DNA from: a virus
Length of the DNA: 27,276 bases
Reading direction: 5' to 3' (one strand)
IMG/VR virus record: IMGVR_UViG_3300043436_003924
Location: 1-27,276 of that record
Position numbers and translations under genes: made by a program. Shown here piece after piece: positions 3,162-17,442 of the stretch. Under the pieces are notes generated by a model, which did no database searches, was not told the DNA's origin, and saw only the letters and a program-made list of their open reading frames with translations. Every line of letters starts with the position of its first letter. Position 1 is the stretch's first letter.

Positions 3162-3235
3162 AGGGGTGTGGTGAAATGGTATCACAGAAGTCTCCAAAAC
3201 TTTTAGCGGGGGTTCGATTCCCTCCACCCTTGCCA
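3162..3235 (+). tRNA. tRNA-Trp(CCA)
   Basis: Acceptor AGGGGTG/CACCCTT (one G-U), discriminator G and encoded CCA. Anticodon loop CTCCAAA gives CCA on an AAGT/ACTT stem. T-loop TTCGATT. Confidence 0.92.
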
Positions 3236-3243
3236 ACTACAAT

Positions 3244-3320
3244 GCGCTCTTGGTGCCAGATGGATGGTCACAGGGATTCTAACCCCTAGGAGGCAGGCTC
3301 GATACCTGTAGGGCGCACCA
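3244..3320 (+). tRNA. tRNA-Arg(UCU) with an irregular anticodon stem-loop
   Basis: Acceptor GCGCTCT/AGGGCGC, discriminator A and encoded CCA closely resemble bacterial tRNA-Arg(UCU). The anticodon arm does not form a normal 5+7 structure. Either a 7-nt loop ATTCTAA sits on three G-C pairs plus two mismatches, or an 8-nt loop ATTCTAAC sits on AGGG/CCCT. The T-loop begins C (CTCGATA) instead of T. UCU is the natural reading, and the loop also contains CUA one base over. Confidence 0.8.
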
Positions 3321-3338
3321 TTTCGAAGGAGAGTAAAC

Positions 3339-3515
3339 ATGCACATGACCAAAAAAGAAATAGAAACTGCTGTTCGAGTTTGGCCAGCTAATGCAGAGGC
3401 TCCGCTGACTAGAGATCAGCAAATAGAACTAATGACTACTGCAAAGGTTAGACACCTTGCTAGAATTGAAAAAACGATCAGACTAATCAAAGGAGAAAAC
3501 GATGTCGTAGATTGA
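3339..3515 (+). CDS. small hypothetical protein (58 aa)
   Basis: ATG 3339 is preceded by GAAGGAGAG, a strong ribosome site 18 nt after tRNA-Arg. The product (MHMTKKEIET...) is helical and basic at the C-terminal end (RHLARIEKTIRLIKG). The stop TGA 3513-3515 lies across the start region of the next gene, so the two are probably translationally coupled. No family recognised. Confidence 0.65.
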   Translation: MHMTKKEIETAVRVWPANAEAPLTRDQQIELMTTAKVRHLARIEKTIRLIKGENDVVD

Positions 3516-3516
3516 A

Positions 3517-4071
3517 TTGCTTTGTAAAGATGTGGTGTTCCACTTCAATAAGAAACACTTAGAAGATACTAGTATTCCTATGTGGGTGCTTAAAACACGA
3601 GGAGAAACCTACTACGTAAATCACGTAAGTTGTAGTGTTCCGTGGAGTACTAAAGAAACGCCGGATAACAGTCATACCAAAGGTGCAATTAAAGTTAAAG
3701 ATTGTGTTGTAACAATTGACGACGATAACTGTGCTGACATTCGTGTGATAACTCCAGCAGATCGGGTAAACTTTCAAAAAAAGCAAACCGTTAGAGTTAT
3801 AACTGAATATGGTAAGAAGTTAAAAGATGCACTTGTAAACATGAGCCACAGTCCTGTAAAGTTAGCTGGCGGCGGATGTGGGACTACTTGGTATATTACA
3901 GATATTCCAAGTATGAAACATTTTTTATTGTTACAGTTGCAAATTCCTAGCATAAGAGTTCTTAAAGAAAACGAAGACTACTATAAAAAGTACGATTCAA
4001 GTCCGGACGAATGGCTAGATGAAGATAATTATATCGACGACGATGATTACGAGTCACTTTATGAAAATTGA
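3517..4071 (+). CDS. hypothetical protein with acidic tail (184 aa); in-frame amber just upstream
   Basis: The open frame starts at TTG 3517. In the same frame, 15 nt upstream, ATG TCG TAG (3502-3510) sits behind a good AAAGGAG, so the ancestral start is probably ATG 3502 with an amber at codon 3. Translation may now reinitiate at TTG 3517 or a later ATG (3580), or read through. The protein has a mixed alpha/beta body (WVLKTRGETYYV, DCVVTIDDDN, GGGCGTTWYITDIPS) and a very acidic C-terminus (DEWLDEDNYIDDDDYESLYEN). No known domain recognised. TAG ends other genes here (1364, 8661), so general amber reassignment is unlikely. Confidence 0.65.
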   Translation: MLCKDVVFHFNKKHLEDTSIPMWVLKTRGETYYVNHVSCSVPWSTKETPDNSHTKGAIKVKDCVVTIDDDNCADIRVITPADRVNFQKKQTVRVITEYGKKLKDALVNMSHSPVKLAGGGCGTTWYITDIPSMKHFLLLQLQIPSIRVLKENEDYYKKYDSSPDEWLDEDNYIDDDDYESLYEN

Positions 4072-5066: not shown

Positions 5067-5837
5067 ATGTATAACATGAATTATCATATAAAAAACTTTA
5101 TTGCACCCATACACGTCTTATTTTTAATATCACTGGTTGGTATATATTTTAATGTAGTTGAGTTTTATCTTTGGCTTTTTTTATTAGGTTGGACATTAAT
5201 TTATGGTTTAGGACTTGTAGTTGGATTTCATAAATTATTATCTCACAAATCTTTTACAACAAACAAATATGTATCTTATTTCTTAGCTTACTTAGGATGT
5301 TTGGGAATTAGTGGATCACCTATTTGGTGGGCTGCTATACATAGAGGTCATCACCATGCTCACACAGAAACAGAAAAAGATCTCCAAACTCCTCGTCGAG
5401 GATGGTTTAATTCTTACATTGGATGGCAGTTTGGCGATGATACAAGTAAAATAAGTTTAAAATATGCTGCTGATTTAATAAAAGATCCAGTTCTTTTGTT
5501 TTTACATAAGAATTATCGTGCTGTTGTTTGGGGAACAGTGATGCTTGTTGGCGTGTTATCACCGAGTGTTGCCGTTTCATTGTTGATATTTCCAATGATT
5601 GCAGCACATCATGGTGAAAATATTACTAATTTATTTGGGCATAGTAGATTTGCTGGTTATAGAAATTTTGATACCAAAGACGATACTGTAAATAATCCAG
5701 TATTGGCTTTTATAACTTGGGGTCAACTACTGCACAACAATCATCATGCTAAACCAAATAATGACAGTTTTGCTATTAAGTGGTTCGAGATTGATCCAAC
5801 CTTTCCCTTTGTTTGGTTTTTAAAAAAATTAAAATAA
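5067..5837 (+). CDS. membrane fatty-acid (acyl-CoA/acyl-lipid) desaturase, 256 aa
   Basis: This is an integral-membrane di-iron desaturase that would insert a cis double bond into acyl chains. All three histidine boxes are present: HKLLSH (55-60), HRGHHH (92-97) and HNNHH (223-227). Hydrophobic spans flank them (about 11-30, 33-54, 68-90 and 150-180). The W-W-A-A-I-H-R-G-H-H-H context is characteristic of the delta-9 stearoyl-CoA desaturase family. It is shorter than many bacterial members (about 300-380 aa) and lacks a fused cytochrome b5, so it must use host electron donors. ATG 5067 is chosen, and ATG 5076 is also possible. A phage desaturase would plausibly remodel host membrane fluidity during infection (inference). 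Composition is as AT-rich as its neighbours, so it is not a very recent acquisition. Confidence 0.88.
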   Translation: MYNMNYHIKNFIAPIHVLFLISLVGIYFNVVEFYLWLFLLGWTLIYGLGLVVGFHKLLSHKSFTTNKYVSYFLAYLGCLGISGSPIWWAAIHRGHHHAHTETEKDLQTPRRGWFNSYIGWQFGDDTSKISLKYAADLIKDPVLLFLHKNYRAVVWGTVMLVGVLSPSVAVSLLIFPMIAAHHGENITNLFGHSRFAGYRNFDTKDDTVNNPVLAFITWGQLLHNNHHAKPNNDSFAIKWFEIDPTFPFVWFLKKLK

Positions 5838-5964: not shown

Positions 5965-6648
5965 ATGAAAAATGTTTGGATTTTCGGTGACAGTTATGCA
6001 GATAAAAATTATAACAACGCCTGTATCGAAAATTGGCCAATGTTATTAGAAAAAAAATATAATGTAAAAAACTTTGCAGTTGCAGGTTCTGGTCCAGAAT
6101 ACAGTATTAACACTTTGTATAACGAATTTAGAAAAACTAATGCAACTGACGTAAAAAAAACTACAGTTATATTTTTCATAAGTGCAGTATCTAGATACAA
6201 CTTTTCTTTTTTACCACCACAATATCAGTGTTTAATAAAATTTGTAAATTATAATAAATCTGACATAAATCGCAAGCTTATTAATGCTCATGGAGACAAA
6301 AAGAAAATTTTATTTTTACAAGAATTTTTTAGAGAATATCATCTAAATCAACCCGATGAAATACAATATTTAAAAATATTAGGAACACTACAGATTTTAA
6401 GCAACAGATTTGAAAAAGTGTTGTGTATACCTTGTTTTAATCACATACCCGACTATGTTTCAACAAATACAGACAATTTTTATCTCTTTTCTCATATACC
6501 GTTTTATGTTAAAATGGACAAACAAAACTTTAAGTTTGGTCAAGATCCAAGATCAAATCATCTAGATAACGATAAACATCTAGAATTTTATGAACAATTA
6601 AAAAATTGGATTGATTTTAATCTTCTTGTTGACATTGAAAAAAAATAA
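5965..6648 (+). CDS. SGNH/GDSL-hydrolase-like protein (227 aa)
   Basis: The N-terminus VWIFGDSYAD carries the block I Gly-Asp-Ser (8-10) with the nucleophile candidate S10. A block III-like GSGPEYSIN follows near residue 41. The C-terminal block has D194PRSNHLDNDKH205, which could supply the catalytic Asp/His (H199 or H205). SGNH enzymes hydrolyse esters on lipids or acetylated glycans. In phages they are often virion or cell-surface-modifying proteins, but no fibre domain is fused here. No signal peptide. A late promoter and the divergent RNA-locus leader both lie upstream. The substrate is unknown. Confidence 0.65.
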   Translation: MKNVWIFGDSYADKNYNNACIENWPMLLEKKYNVKNFAVAGSGPEYSINTLYNEFRKTNATDVKKTTVIFFISAVSRYNFSFLPPQYQCLIKFVNYNKSDINRKLINAHGDKKKILFLQEFFREYHLNQPDEIQYLKILGTLQILSNRFEKVLCIPCFNHIPDYVSTNTDNFYLFSHIPFYVKMDKQNFKFGQDPRSNHLDNDKHLEFYEQLKNWIDFNLLVDIEKK

Positions 6649-6680
6649 TAGTTAAATAACAGAAAAATTTTAAAAAGAGG

Positions 6681-6708
6681 TTGACATTGTGCGTAACGAT
6701 GTTAAATT
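6681..6708 (+). promoter_or_regulatory. sigma70-like promoter of the large RNA locus
   Basis: TTGACA lies at 6681-6686 and TAAATT at 6703-6708, with a 16-bp spacer. It is homologous in layout to 4-32. The predicted start at about 6715 coincides with the start of the shared leader. Confidence 0.65.
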
Positions 6709-6713
6709 AAACA

Positions 6714-6745
6714 AGTAAGCAAGAAGTTGTTTACACGCTCTTTGA
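6714..6745 (+). repeat. boxA-type transcribed leader, copy 2
   Basis: The 32 bases are identical to 38-69. They end in ACGCTCTTTGA and are followed by TAATTT, an rRNA-type boxA. The flanking promoter and downstream sequences differ, so conservation is focused on the leader itself, as expected of a functional RNA signal. Confidence 0.7.
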
Positions 6746-7795
6746 TAATTTGGTAAACACTGTGTTTACACAGGTATATTGGGTAGTAGCACTGTCAAGT
6801 AACTAGGGTGGTTCCTAGCGAAACAACAGGGCCACACGCTACTGACAATAGGTTGAAATGGCAATGCTAACCACTATGTCTATCGACTGACGATAAGATA
6901 AACAATATATCGTTGTAAACACAGTAAGATGGGCGGCTTAGCGTCCACATAAGGGTAAGTGCAGTAATGCACCCAAAGCAAGGTTTCCTATAAACTTGCG
7001 CCAGCAATGGTCCATCTAAGCAAGCCTGGGTTAACATTACTCGTCTTGAGCGTAAGTAATGTCCGTCCGTAGAAAGGCGGTATCCAGTAAGTTAGAAGAA
7101 CTGTCCGTAAGGATAGTCGCAGAGCCGGTCGGTGAGCGATAAGAGGGTTGGCGCCCGAACAGTTTTTAGCCAAACTAACGAATGGAAAATACCAACAGGT
7201 AGTTAACTAGTCTGAGCCTGCAAGCAAAGGCAAGTTAGCATCTTGAGCGTTGAAGGGAATTAATAAACCGGAGACGTGAAAAGACGTTGAGTAGTCCGCA
7301 AGACAAAAGACAGTCGGTGTGTTGTATTTTGCGTCTAACAAGGCGTGAAGCAACTGGGACAGCACATCGAAGTAGGTTCGCAATATTGCTTAACGGTAAA
7401 GCAATCGTCTTGATAACGATCGAATGCGGGTTCAACTCCTGCTATTGAAACAAAAGCGAAAGACTGTCCCGGTACGTTGTGAAAGGTGGTTAATGCCACA
7501 CTCGCAAGAGAATGTGGTCTACGGATGCTCGCAAGGCTGATGTAGTTGTTCGGAAAGATAGCGTAACGGTTTAGCGACTGTGAACTGCTCGCAAGGCAGA
7601 CGAAAGATAGAAGGACGAGTAGCAACGTGCGACGAGAGAAACGCCACTCTCCAAAAAAGGCACCACTGGGAGATACAGGATGACCGTAAAAGGCTCCTGT
7701 GGATAACGAGAGAACGTGGCTCGCAAGGCTAACGGTAATGCTCAAAGGCTCCTACAGCAAGGCATAATCTCAGCCTATGCAAAAATTAAGTTTAA
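6746..7795 (+). ncRNA. candidate giant ornate structured RNA (GOLLD/ROOL-like), about 1.05 kb
   Basis: This stretch has no plausible gene on either strand, is dense in hairpins, and follows a promoter plus boxA. Visible helices: GTAAACA/TGTTTAC (6753-6759/6763-6769); GTGC/GCAC near 6958-6972; ACATTAC/GTAATGT (about 7033-7061); TCC-GTAA-GGA (about 7104); AGTTT/AAACT (about 7161-7175); and GGGACAG (7356-7362) with CTGTCCC (7464-7470), which closes around a tRNA-like domain. At least four loops read TCGCAAG (about 7502, 7529, 7588, 7720), several closed by GC pairs. Known biology: GOLLD and ROOL RNAs are phage-encoded, 500-900 nt, beside tRNAs, and some GOLLD RNAs contain a tRNA. I cannot confirm homology, so the ends and family are uncertain. 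RNase P RNA and tmRNA signatures were not seen. Confidence 0.6.
7379..7449 (+). tRNA. tRNA-like domain inside the large RNA; no CCA
   Basis: The D arm GCTT-AACGGTA-AAGC, anticodon arm ATCGT-CTTGATA-ACGAT and T arm GCGGG-TTCAACT-CCTGC are all well formed. The acceptor has only CAATA/TATTG (7381-7385/7443-7447), with the two terminal pairs broken, and no CCA follows. By geometry the anticodon would be UGA with T37, which is not a functional serine tRNA (no long arm, pyrimidine 37). GAU is one base over. It is enclosed by the 7-bp helix 7356-7362/7464-7470. It reads as a tRNA mimic or degenerate tRNA built into the RNA. Confidence 0.6.
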
Positions 7796-7873
7796 CGACA
7801 TGTTAGTTCAAAAACCGGTACCGTTTGTGGAAAGTGATAAGAGGATTGACATATCTTTTAACTTAACTTGTTG

Positions 7874-8033
7874 AACAGTTTTCGAGTTCCGACCCATTTG
7901 GAAGTAGGCGACTACTCCATTTCCGAGACTGTTCTACCAGTTAAGTCTGTTTTCACATACATCCCGTAAACGAGGGTCGGCCACCCAAACTTTACTGAAA
8001 CACGCAATGCGCTGGGGTGTATGTGTAAACAGA
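7874..8033 (+). ncRNA. 3' hairpin domain of the large RNA locus, with a 20-bp helix before tRNA-Met
   Basis: AACAGT (7874-7879) pairs with ACTGTT (7928-7933) around a GTAG-GCGA-CTAC tetraloop hairpin. Next, 7946-7965 pairs with 8014-8033 over 20 bp with one mismatch and one G-U, enclosing GGGT/ACCC and the segment TGCGCTGG (8008-8015). That segment is perfectly complementary to the 3' acceptor strand of the following tRNA. It may be the 3' end of the giant RNA or a separate processing element. Confidence 0.5.
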
Positions 8034-8037
8034 ATAT

Positions 8038-8113
8038 TGCGGGGTAGAGAAGCGGCATCTCGTTTGGCTCATAACCAAAAGATCGTGGGTTCGAGTCCCA
8101 CCCAGCGCAACCA
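8038..8113 (+). tRNA. tRNA-Met(CAU) with imperfect acceptor stem
   Basis: D arm GAGA/TCTC, anticodon arm TTTGG-CTCATAA-CCAAA (CAU), T arm GTGGG-TTCGAGT-CCCAC and encoded CCA are good. The adjacent 5' strand TGCGGGG pairs with CAGCGCA only with a two-base mismatch or bulge. A distant 5' sequence TGCGCTGG (8008-8015) pairs perfectly with CCAGCGCA (8102-8109). The anticodon stem lacks the three G-C pairs of initiator tRNA. A CAU tRNA could also be Ile(k2C), which I cannot exclude. Confidence 0.75.
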
Positions 8114-8119
8114 AACACT

Positions 8120-8210
8120 GGAAGTTTGGCAGAGATGGATTATTGCACCGGTCTTGAAAACCGACGGCGCTGAAAGGCGTCCCAGGGTTCGAATCCCTGA
8201 ACTTCCGCCA
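8120..8210 (+). tRNA. tRNA-Ser(UGA)
   Basis: Acceptor GGAAGTT/AACTTCC, discriminator G and encoded CCA. Anticodon loop CTTGAAA gives UGA. The long variable arm is GGCGC-TGAAA-GGCGTC-like, as expected for serine. Confidence 0.95.
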
Positions 8211-8216
8211 TAAATA
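8209..8216 (+). promoter_or_regulatory. T4-like late promoter overlapping the CCA end of tRNA-Ser
   Basis: CATAAATA (7/8 match) begins inside the tRNA CCA and is followed by ATGT and ATG 8221. The spacing of 4 nt to the start codon predicts a leaderless transcript. Confidence 0.55.
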
Positions 8217-8220
8217 ATGT

Positions 8221-8661
8221 ATGAAATATAAAGAACTTTTTGAGTTAAGAAATACTGCGATGGATTACTTTAAACAAAAGTTTCCACGTACACCAGATTA
8301 TGTCATACAAGACTTTATATACAAGCATTATAAAAACAATCCCGATCAAATCGATTCTGACACAGTAGATTGGTTGAACGAGTTAACTTGGGATAAAAAA
8401 ACAATACTTGTAACACTTGATATTTTTGACGACTGGACACAAGATCGTTTACGTCAGCTAATAGGCGATGCTGCACAAACAGCAGATCCTAGATACAAGA
8501 CACAACAAGATATAGTAAATAAAACTGGCATAAGCAACGAACCAATTATAGTTACAGTAGAAGATGGTAAGTATGTTTTGCAAGAAGGATGGCACAGAAC
8601 TGTTGCAGCATTAAAAAAGTATCCTAAGGGATACAAACAGGTTGCATATATAGGTAGTTAG
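8221..8661 (+). CDS. ParB/Srx-fold-like hypothetical protein (146 aa)
   Basis: The C-terminal part reads EPIIVTVEDGKYVLQEGWHRTVAALKKY. A beta strand, then a G-x-H-R-x-x-A-A helix start, resembles the ParB-like nuclease core seen in the 1529 protein (DGHHR). The helical N-terminal half (MKYKELFELRNTAMDYFKQKFPRTPDYVIQDFIY) has no family I recognise. It is a single-domain orphan beside tRNAs, driven by its own late-type promoter. Function unknown, and nuclease activity is not implied. Confidence 0.6.
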   Translation: MKYKELFELRNTAMDYFKQKFPRTPDYVIQDFIYKHYKNNPDQIDSDTVDWLNELTWDKKTILVTLDIFDDWTQDRLRQLIGDAAQTADPRYKTQQDIVNKTGISNEPIIVTVEDGKYVLQEGWHRTVAALKKYPKGYKQVAYIGS

Positions 8662-12833: not shown

Positions 12834-13421
12834 ATGCCCTTAGTACCTATGGTAATTGAACAAGAATCTCGAGGCGAGCGTTCTTACGATATTTACAGTA
12901 GACTTTTAAAAGACCGTATTGTTATGCTAAACGGTCCTGTCGAAGATAACGGAGCAAACTTAATTGTTGCTCAGATGCTTTTCTTAGAATCTCAAGATTC
13001 TGAAAAGCCAATCAAGTTTTACATTAATAGTCCAGGAGGTGTAATTACTTCCGGAATGAGCATTTACGATACTATGCAATTTATCAAGCCAGAAGTGCAT
13101 ACTATTGTTATGGGTCAAGCTTGTAGTATGGGATCATTCTTGGCACAAGCTGGTGCAAAAGGACACAGATATCTATTGCCAAATGCTAGACACATGATAC
13201 ACCAACCTAGCGGCGGAGCAAGAGGCATGGCTAGCGATATTGAAATCCAATATAAAGAAATTATGTATTGGAAGAAACAGTTAACTGAGTTGTACGTACA
13301 CCACAACAGTGTTGGCAAGACATATGAAGATTTTGAGCGTGATATGGATCGTGATACTTTTCTAAGTGCTAAAGAAGCAGTTGAGTACGGGCTTGCTGAT
13401 TCTATTATTAGTGCTCGTTAA
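12834..13421 (+). CDS. clpP: ATP-dependent Clp protease proteolytic subunit (195 aa)
   Basis: This is the barrel-forming serine protease subunit that works with a host ClpX/ClpA unfoldase. The catalytic triad is intact: S98 in [10 protein letters not shown]123 in HMIHQPSGG, and D174 in MDRDTFLSA. The oxyanion region NSPGG (65-69) and the YDTMQFIKP hydrophobic-cleft helix are present. The protein begins [10 protein letters not shown], exactly at the mature N-terminus of bacterial ClpP, so the usual propeptide of about 14 residues is absent. It has its own sigma70 promoter. Marine T4-like phages are known to carry clpP. Here it could redirect host proteolysis or mature phage proteins (inference). 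Confidence 0.95.
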
Positions 13422-15132: not shown

Positions 15133-15157
15133 CTCGGGGGTACGTTCTATGTATAGT
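15129..15157 (+). promoter_or_regulatory. sigma70 promoter of the UV endonuclease gene, leaderless configuration
   Basis: TTGACT (15129-15134), 17-bp spacer, TATAGT (15152-15157). The expected start (about 15163-15165) falls on ATG 15164, with no ribosome site. Confidence 0.8.
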
Positions 15158-15163
15158 GTAAAC

Positions 15164-16195
15164 ATGACACACAACATCATCACAAAACGCATCGGCTTTG
15201 CTTGCAAATATCTTTATCGTGATCAATCGCTCAAGAAGCGTATTTTAGAAGATTACGAACGTCCTCTTAATACTAAAGCAACAACTGTTGCTTGGTTGAA
15301 CAGACAGAAAAAGTCTGAAGCCGAAGTTCGGCTTTGGGAAATTATGGTTCATAACATTAATTCTATGGAAAGGTTGATTACATATGTTGGAAGTTTACCT
15401 CCAGCACTCCGTATGGTACGTATTGGCAGCGATATCCTGCCTGTTTATACTGAGTCTAATTGGAGTTACTATTGGAAGCAACCAGATGTCATCCAATACT
15501 GCGAACGAGAATTTGCTCGAGTGGGTGATCTTGCACGTAGGCTTGATGTTCGCTTGTCTATGCACCCTGGCCAGTTTACCGTTTTGGCTTCCGATAATCC
15601 TGATGTAGTCGAACGCAGTATTGAGGAGTTTGAATATCATGCGAATCTCATCAGGTGGATGGGCTACGGTAAGCGTTGGCAAGACTTCAAGTGTAACGTC
15701 CACATCTCCGGTAGAAAAGGTCCAGCCGGTATCATCGACGTACTTCCAAGATTGTCTCCAGAGGCAAGAAACTGTATTACTATTGAAAACGACGAAAACA
15801 GCTGGGGACTCGACGCAAGCCTAGAACTTGCTGATCACGTAGCTCTAGTGTTGGACATTCATCACCATTGGGTCAAGACAGGTGAATACATCGAACCCAA
15901 CGACAGTCGTATTGGTCGCATTGTTGACAGTTGGCGCGGTGTACGTCCTGCTATGCATTACAGTGTTAGTCGTGAGGATGTTCTAACAACACATGACGTT
16001 AACACCAAGCCCGTGATGAGTGTTTTACTTGAAAATAATCATAAAAAACAACAACTCCGCGCACACAGCGACTATATGTGGAACAACGCTGTAAATGAAT
16101 GGGCGCTAAGTCATTGGGAATGGGCAGACATTATGGTAGAAGCAAAGTGCAAGAATCTTGCCAGCATCAAGTTGTATGAACATGCAATTCGATGA
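15164..16195 (+). CDS. uvsE: UV damage endonuclease, UvsE/UVDE family (343 aa)
   Basis: Cuts DNA 5' to UV photoproducts and other lesions, starting alternative excision repair. The TIM-barrel signatures are all visible: RIGFACKYL at the N-terminus, RIGSDILPVY, RLSMHPGQFTVL, CNVHISGRKG, TIENDENSWG, LVLDIHHHW and AMHYSVSR, with the metal-binding His/Glu/Asp residues in these blocks. ATG 15164 is chosen because the earlier in-frame ATG 15149 lies inside the promoter. There is no ribosome site, and the promoter position predicts a leaderless mRNA. Phage UvsE-type enzymes fit a sunlit habitat. Its end overlaps the next CDS. Confidence 0.92.
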   Translation: MTHNIITKRIGFACKYLYRDQSLKKRILEDYERPLNTKATTVAWLNRQKKSEAEVRLWEIMVHNINSMERLITYVGSLPPALRMVRIGSDILPVYTESNWSYYWKQPDVIQYCEREFARVGDLARRLDVRLSMHPGQFTVLASDNPDVVERSIEEFEYHANLIRWMGYGKRWQDFKCNVHISGRKGPAGIIDVLPRLSPEARNCITIENDENSWGLDASLELADHVALVLDIHHHWVKTGEYIEPNDSRIGRIVDSWRGVRPAMHYSVSREDVLTTHDVNTKPVMSVLLENNHKKQQLRAHSDYMWNNAVNEWALSHWEWADIMVEAKCKNLASIKLYEHAIR

Positions 16196-17076: not shown

Positions 17077-17442
17077 ATGGAAGTTTGCACACTTACAGAA
17101 TCAGCTAAAAAACAGATAGACATGCTATGTCAAGAAAACAATTGCTATGCAATTAGTTTAAACATTCGCGGCGGGGGATGTGCAGGGTTTGAATACGATT
17201 GGGGAACAATATCTCATCCTTCAGAACTACATCCTGGAGACATTGTTGTACACACAGACAATGCAGGACGCTTTGTTATAGGAGCACATAGTCTTATGTT
17301 TTTAATAGGAACCGAAGTAGACTACATTCGTAGCTTAGTAGGAAGTAACTTTGAAATTCGTAACCCAAATGCAAGAAGTAGTTGCGGATGCGGAGTAAGT
17401 GTAAATTTTGATTTAGAAGAGTTAGAATCGTCTAACATATAA
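17077..17442 (+). CDS. A-type iron-sulfur cluster carrier, IscA/HesB family (121 aa)
   Basis: Carries and delivers Fe-S clusters. The three invariant cysteines are present: C35 in RGGGCAGFEY and C103/C105 in SSCGCGVSV. Length (121) and order match the IscA/SufA/HesB fold. It has a perfect late promoter, ribosome site AAAGGG, and lies directly upstream of the fibre gene (13-nt gap). Marine T4-like phages are known to carry such homologues. Its target may be a phage virion protein with an Fe-S cluster or a host enzyme (inference). Confidence 0.92.
   Translation: MEVCTLTESAKKQIDMLCQENNCYAISLNIRGGGCAGFEYDWGTISHPSELHPGDIVVHTDNAGRFVIGAHSLMFLIGTEVDYIRSLVGSNFEIRNPNARSSCGCGVSVNFDLEELESSNI

Follow-up and report, generated by a model that had tools for sequence, protein, structure and literature searches.

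GOLLD (RF02032) and ROOL (RF03087) are the closest described relatives of the element analyzed here. An atomic structure is available for GOLLD. According to excerpts of PMC12286853, cryo-electron microscopy of the env-38 GOLLD reveals 14 copies that form a closed RNA cage through kissing loops, with the linker pointing inside; ribosome binding was detected in pull-downs, and transfer RNAs (tRNAs) in the linker are perhaps enclosed. The same excerpts describe ROOL, a giant phage RNA found near tRNAs, as cage-forming. Lytic expression is reported for the GOLLD of an L. brevis prophage in excerpts of PMC7567579. Here we describe a GOLLD locus at positions 6681-8037 of the IMG/VR virus record IMGVR_UViG_3300043436_003924. 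The window, meaning the whole stretch of DNA analyzed, comprises 27,276 nt, and this 27-kb viral record is probably a fragment. We consider it likely that a GOLLD RNA transcription unit occupies this locus, in which a promoter, a hairpin and a boxA precede the 5′ and 3′ domains and a tRNA-like domain occupies the linker, with boxA function and cage formation proposed by analogy. The family, the two-domain architecture, the leader elements and the linker mimic, as predicted elements, are established by sequence and covariation.

The locus and its family

An initial annotation, made from the sequence alone, described about 1.35 kb without a gene and proposed a member or new relative of the GOLLD/ROOL class. 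The plus strand indeed contains no open reading frame (ORF) of at least 60 aa from the end of the upstream ORF (6648) to the start of tRNA-Met (8037), the single exception being one that starts at 8007 and extends into the tRNAs. Pfam assigned no family to the upstream gene, so its earlier description as SGNH finds no backing. The check proposed for the class, an Infernal search with Rfam 15, yields a match above the RF02032 gathering cut-off of 150 bits that spans the whole model (Table 1). ROOL has no match in the window at its gathering score, and none in 6600-8240 with the threshold relaxed to E 5.

The remaining features agree with the family. The locus lies in a viral record within an array of tRNA genes (19 ARAGORN tRNAs in the window, the embedded linker one counted), it has a structured, less conserved 5′ domain immediately before the 3′ domain and a variable linker, and its GOLLD core (6931-7776) measures 846 nt, where the class size is roughly 800 nt. 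Size and tRNA neighborhood by themselves would also be compatible with ROOL or with a new, unrelated giant-RNA class. The full-length match above the cut-off, together with the unmatched ROOL model, refutes that reading and leaves it practically no probability. Judged by its match to the family model, the locus encodes a GOLLD RNA and belongs to GOLLD proper, which supports the initial proposal. It is unexceptional among the members of this remarkable family, across which two regularities are seen, the boxA leader and the tRNA mimic. The repeated TCGCAAG loops noted earlier are present as four copies in the 3′ domain, but the five copies in the window as a whole are not unusual (shuffles average 2.4, and 10 of 100 reach 5). 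A scan of the plus strand for terminators in 6600-8240 found none.

Table 1. Coordinates of predicted features at the GOLLD locus, given as window positions
Feature	Position	Strand	Details
Sigma-70-type promoter (predicted)	6681-6708	+	TTGACA 6681-6686, 16 nt, TAAATT 6703-6708; TG before second hexamer; 10/12 consensus matches
Leader hairpin	6715-6734	+	GTAAGCAA-GAAG-TTGTTTAC; boxB-like position, ends 2 nt before boxA
Putative rRNA-type boxA	6737-6751	+	GCTCTTTGATAATTT; strict 9-mer
Variable leader domain	6760-6924	+	Closed by 11-bp helix 6760-6770/6914-6924, by eye from alignment
GOLLD 5′ domain	6931-7313	+	RNAalifold, 11 homologues
GOLLD 3′ domain	7314-7776	+	Rfam RF02032, model 1-416, 192.8 bits, E 3.6e-53
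Linker-closing helix, 5′ arm	7353-7362	+	Score at least 6.5 in 43/44 clusters
tRNA-like linker domain	7379-7451	+	ARAGORN Ser-TGA, class I size; Rfam tRNA 7379-7450
Linker-closing helix, 3′ arm	7464-7473	+	Pairs with 7353-7362, 10 bp
Separate RNA hairpin	7786-7867	+	Near-invariant core ACCGGTACCGTTTGTGGAAAGTGAT (7814-7838) in covarying stem
Structured spacer	7869-8034	+	Ends in long helix directly before tRNA-Met

Similar DNA occurs in Phaeobacter phage MD18, phage DSS3_MAL1 and Sinorhizobium phage Phosso, with GOLLD scores of 169.6, 160.5 and 186.6 bits; the other matches listed are to the downstream tRNAs. These three phages and 97 viral contigs chosen by two conserved GOLLD words make up 100 records, of which 73 match GOLLD at E up to 0.001 and 57 score above the cut-off. 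Set 1 consists of 70 of the 73 loci in 47 clusters, three matches below 50 bits having been dropped; two further matches lie partly outside the fetched DNA. Clusters share at most half of their 12-mers with the representative of any other cluster and are not phylogenetically independent. Set 2 was drawn mostly via a different word search, with membership assigned by nhmmer and our own profile rather than by the Rfam cut-off; two of its 19 tested clusters (L090 and L107) stem from the first word search. We searched 398 genomes from a single bacterial phylum for GOLLD; none matched, and the search tool warns that absence is not shown thereby.

The promoter, hairpin and boxA leader

Both the promoter and the boxA named in the initial annotation are found upstream of the 5′ domain, with a short hairpin between them. 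The promoter-like stretch is aligned in L078, L119, L114, L112, L113, L055, L123 and L083; a corresponding stretch is not aligned in L034 and L068. The 38 nt before boxA fold with a z-score of -3.0 in the window and with a mean of -1.51 across leaders with a boxA (below -1 in 20 of 29). Among the 110 nt that precede boxA, the highest-scoring promoter-like pair reaches at least 9 at 24 of 37 sites, near-duplicate loci included, compared with 13.4% of 500 control segments. The 9-mer has the consensus GYTCTTTRAAAA, which resembles the boxA of ribosomal RNA (rRNA).

A strict boxA, G[CT]TCTTT[AG]A, was sought 330-850 nt before the 3′ domain in the 36 of 47 set 1 clusters with sufficient upstream DNA (at least 850 nt), the window's cluster being represented by L112. 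It is present in 16 of these clusters, whereas 200 dinucleotide shuffles average 0.34 with a maximum of 2, and random windows drawn 200 times from these loci average 0.75 with a maximum of 4. Its density reaches 1.03 per kb in the leader region, compared with 0.054 for the antisense strand and 0.041 elsewhere. Because the 9-mer was fixed after viewing set 1, this set is exploratory. The first filter of set 2 left 11 testable clusters, three with boxA (random windows, mean 0.26 and maximum 3). The filter was then relaxed to admit shorter matches and the region widened to 600-1320 nt before the 3′ end, which gives a strict boxA in 12 of 19 clusters (500 draws of random windows, mean 0.57 and maximum 5). 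Across both sets, the predicted promoter-hairpin-boxA leader is common to about half of the related GOLLD loci examined.

In rRNA transcription, boxA loads NusB/NusE-type factors on the polymerase. The 9-mer upstream of GOLLD could instead serve another role, for example within the fold of the leader or as a target of a phage factor. Of the 55 clusters tested, 27 lack it, and the window leader could pair around it. Against such a role stand the strand specificity of the 9-mer, its tendency to follow a promoter-like pair and a hairpin, and the resemblance of its consensus to rRNA boxA, and we regard it as unlikely. Loading of Nus-type factors is our preferred reading of the 9-mer.

BoxA is unmentioned in the GOLLD literature searched; Weinberg 2009, in which GOLLD was reportedly described, and Morgado 2020 lie outside that search and may mention it. 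In a 3.5-kb stretch of L. salivarius pMP118 (L354), the strand that encodes ROOL is free of strict boxA. The same is true, for either strand, of the ORF-less space in Vibrio phage ICP1 (L353, 20098-21108) that holds an abundant noncoding RNA of about 1 kb; the ICP1 record has no ROOL match and was not searched for GOLLD.

The 5′ domain and the variable leader domain

The Rfam match begins only at 7314, and the 5′ domain therefore adds the 5′ half for the window's clade. RNAalifold predicts 108 pairs from 11 homologues over 6931-7324, of which 56 carry double changes. Shuffles average 29.6 such pairs (standard deviation 3.0; none of 500 is as high), and slid partners give 6-10. The predicted pairs are formed in 98.9% of cells, and the covariation score is 0.447 versus 0.178. 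The structure came from the same alignment on which it was scored, so that part of the signal is expected; the margin over both controls is large. Covariation in homologues, set beforehand as the test of a structured RNA, is thus present at a level that no shuffle attains. The 5′ domain is a real structured RNA.

The antisense strand of the locus carries ORFs, the longest of which spans 136 aa (7335-7745). It is interrupted by stops in L051, L119, L062, L078 and L081 (78-85% identical) as well as in more distant relatives, and runs uninterrupted over the aligned parts of L060, L112, L114, L117, L123 and L034. Stops in several, not all, relatives together with the RNA covariation lead us to reject it as a gene.

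Upstream of the Rfam match, similarity to the window starts at about 6910-6932 in more distant relatives and extends further upstream in L078, L081 and L119. The 11-bp helix that closes the variable leader domain has changed letters and yet is kept in L055 and L114, and partly in L113 (by eye, uncounted), while the content between its arms is conserved in L078 and L119 only. A hairpin at 6753-6769 overlaps the 5′ arm and could compete with it. By eye, remnants resembling a tRNA T arm (GGTTCGAnTCC) are visible in the variable leader domains of L113, L114 and L123.

The tRNA-like domain of the linker

The embedded tRNA mimic of the initial annotation, held by a 7-bp helix (7356-7362/7464-7470), is called by both ARAGORN and Rfam, and its helix proves to be part of one with 10 bp. 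The domain falls in the linker of the RF02032 model. Counted over 44 of the 47 set 1 clusters (L007, L075 and L096 left out), the helix attains its threshold score in all but one cluster with 31 distinct arms, compared with nine of 44 for shuffled partners. ARAGORN places a tRNA inside the GOLLD match at 35 of 70 loci (30 distinct sequences). A covariance model of 28 linker sequences, which omits two CCA-bearing copies, was run on L006 and on 24 of the 35 loci where ARAGORN calls no tRNA. It recovers the domain in 13 of these 24, with L007 (E 0.034) not counted; the remaining 11 of the 35 were left out and taken as near-duplicates of searched loci or as incomplete. ARAGORN and the model search together place the domain in 34 of 47 clusters. 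For set 2, ARAGORN reports a linker tRNA in six of the 16 clusters of the first filter.

In the window copy, the two outermost acceptor pairs are unformed, leaving five, no CCA is encoded, and position 37 is U. Similar departures recur among the 30 linker copies when these are set against the 463 other distinct tRNAs of the same loci. CCA is encoded by 2/30 copies versus 439/463 other tRNAs, and all seven acceptor pairs are formed in 4/30 versus 393/463. U33 is found in 27/30 versus 460/463, with G33 in the other three copies and A37 in 26, and anticodon loops of 6 or 8 nt instead of 7 occur in 4/30 versus 3/463. Judged by these features, the linker tRNA is mostly a mimic, and most copies do not look like usable tRNAs.

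The same features bear on whether the domain is a working tRNA that is excised from GOLLD and used in translation. It obtains a tRNA score from both ARAGORN and Rfam, U33 and A37 are kept in most copies, and a few copies encode CCA, including two of six in set 2. These points are outweighed by the unpaired acceptor tip, missing CCA and U37 of the window copy, by the separate regular tRNA-Ser(TGA) at 8120-8210, and by the G33 and the 6- or 8-nt anticodon loops of other copies. We find this possibility highly improbable, and a functional elongator tRNA was rejected on the five acceptor pairs and absent CCA in the window and the rarity of CCA among the copies.

A second alternative holds that tRNA genes of the array recombine into a permissive linker, where they decay as passengers with no function within GOLLD. 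The location of GOLLD in a tRNA array, the linkers of some clusters that lack a tRNA, and the varying anticodons all suit this scenario, as does a pseudo-tRNA in a mycobacterial GOLLD that, in excerpts of PMC6582537, gave no separate transcript. Decay, however, should affect the arms as much as the acceptor tip. Pairing at acceptor positions 1-3 is seen in 19, 11 and 16 of 30 copies, respectively, whereas positions 4-7 pair in 29-30, and these four together with the D, anticodon and T arms pair in 27-30; the preference of ARAGORN for intact arms applies to this comparison. Furthermore, by eye, the window's relatives appear to share one homologous domain in which the anticodon changes (TGA, TCT, GCT, 8-nt loops) and the arms still pair, and the model search detects the domain in 13 loci without an ARAGORN call. 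We view the passenger scenario as less likely than not. In the 28-sequence alignment, 98.6% of cells are paired versus 67.6% in shuffles, with 160 double-change cells versus 48.2. Since ARAGORN favors intact arms, the linker data lean towards a conserved structure and are not proof of it.

Proposed working of the locus

The elements suggest the following scheme. The GOLLD 5′ domain and then the 3′ domain would follow a sigma-70-type promoter, a short hairpin and a boxA of rRNA type, and a 10-bp helix would hold the tRNA-like domain in the linker. As in rRNA biology, boxA may recruit NusB/NusE-type factors to the polymerase, and the polymerase so modified could produce a long untranslated structured RNA that is spared Rho termination and able to fold during transcription. 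The leader thereby suggests how such an RNA could be made in quantity. By analogy with the env-38 homologue, 14 copies might assemble into a closed cage enclosing up to 14 tRNA mimics, and expression would be lytic, as reported for the L. brevis prophage.

With a tRNA mimic that mostly lacks CCA and has no fixed anticodon, the search for a cargo narrows to tRNA-elbow binders. We tentatively suggest that in lytic growth the cage could take up and retain a factor recognizing the tRNA elbow, for which the anticodon and 3′ end would be irrelevant; candidates include a tRNA-modifying or tRNA-cutting enzyme and a ribosomal component. Somewhat more speculative is the general proposal that GOLLDs are phage RNA compartments made via host rRNA antitermination, with an interior ring of non-decoding tRNA mimics selected as bait for a tRNA-elbow binder, and that the hairpin at 7786-7867 is a separate and as yet undescribed RNA element in phage arrays of tRNA and tmRNA genes.

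Several observations weigh against this scheme. Within the regions searched, strict boxA was not found in 20/36 clusters of set 1 and 7/19 of set 2, and the relatives without it include L123, L068, L083 and L055, the last with a one-letter variant. No linker tRNA-like domain was detected in 13/47 clusters, two of which are incomplete loci outside the model search. BoxA and the linker domain are thus each missing in some clusters, and neither is essential to GOLLD. Some linker copies do encode CCA (2/30 in set 1 and 2/6 in set 2). Linker pairs with any double change number 15, close to the 13.2 of shuffles (55 of 500 reach 15), and covariation in the linker set is partly selected for by ARAGORN. 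The single-sequence fold of 6931-7776 is unremarkable (z -1.32). Excerpts of PMC7567579 report that the L. brevis GOLLD is dispensable for phage production. The bait function is a guess.

The downstream hairpin and other genes

A separate hairpin follows GOLLD, and its core ACCGGTACCGTYTGTGGAAAGTRAT is near-invariant while the stem letters differ from locus to locus. It occurs at 13 loci with nine distinct sequences, and 12 of its 21 pairs carry double changes, compared with 6.6 in shuffles (none of 500 as high) and 2-6 with slid partners. In the window, L062, L078, L081 and L123 it follows GOLLD at a distance of 37-38 nt; in L042, L055 and L070 the distance is about 0.1-0.4 kb. In L121 (4663-4755, minus strand), L122, L191 (4733-4825) and L207 it is flanked by two tRNAs, and no GOLLD was detected in the fetched DNA, and in Rhodobacter phage RcXuper (L120, 3108-3200) it precedes a permuted transfer-messenger RNA (tmRNA). 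Rfam has no match to it, either in the window stretch (E up to 5) or in L120-L123 (E up to 0.01). The hairpin is perhaps a processing or protein-binding element. Four cellular matches to its pattern look like chance and were rejected. Upstream of the searched word they depart from the core, three reappearing with 7-8 mismatches and one with more than eight.

The stretch 7777-8036 as a whole folds with a z-score of -3.76. Among the loci listed, the letters of the spacer are common only to L062, L078 and L081, in which the long helix before tRNA-Met (7945-8034) is also seen. Permuted tmRNA genes were noted in MD18 (L002, 4757-5165) and DSS3_MAL1 (L003, 4596-5004), directly downstream of GOLLD, and in RcXuper (3230-3652). 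Their tag peptides read ANTNAAPMEMAIAA in MD18 and DSS3_MAL1 and ANENFAPMEMRLAA in RcXuper. By eye, nested hairpins with GAGCCTCACCA ... TTGGTGGTGCT arms stand before the tmRNA in L120 (2940-3200) and L003 (4530-4620), and only one of them contains the core of the downstream hairpin.

Elsewhere in the window, Pfam identifies a fatty acid desaturase (5067-5837), ClpP (12834-13421), the UV endonuclease UvdE (15149-16195) and an iron-sulphur assembly protein (17077-17442). Searches with the proteins left the phage unplaced. A further tRNA at 1437-1509 scores 44.6 bits with Rfam and is not reported by ARAGORN.

Comparison with known systems

ROOL shares with this locus the character of a giant phage RNA near tRNAs and, per excerpts of PMC12286853, the ability to form a cage. 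It differs in that its model finds no sequence match here, and the one ROOL examined is without strict boxA on its strand. An rRNA leader with boxB and boxA presents the same order of promoter, hairpin, boxA and long structured untranslated RNA. Here, in contrast, the RNA is that of a phage, the Nus link is putative, and roughly half of the clusters have no strict boxA.

The mycobacterial GOLLD of PMC6582537, as excerpted, likewise has a pseudo-tRNA predicted inside the GOLLD gene. That case concerns one gene, whereas the loci compared here present a domain with paired arms and varying anticodon in 34 of 47 clusters. With GOLLD as defined by RF02032, the locus shares the full-length 3′ domain, the structured 5′ domain, the variable linker, the phage tRNA array and the size. 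It has in addition a variable leader domain at 6760-6924, a predicted promoter-hairpin-boxA leader of the kind found in about half of the clusters, and a tRNA-like linker domain without CCA. To what the excerpts of PMC12286853 say of tRNAs in the linker, the present comparison adds that most linker domains look unusable as tRNA.
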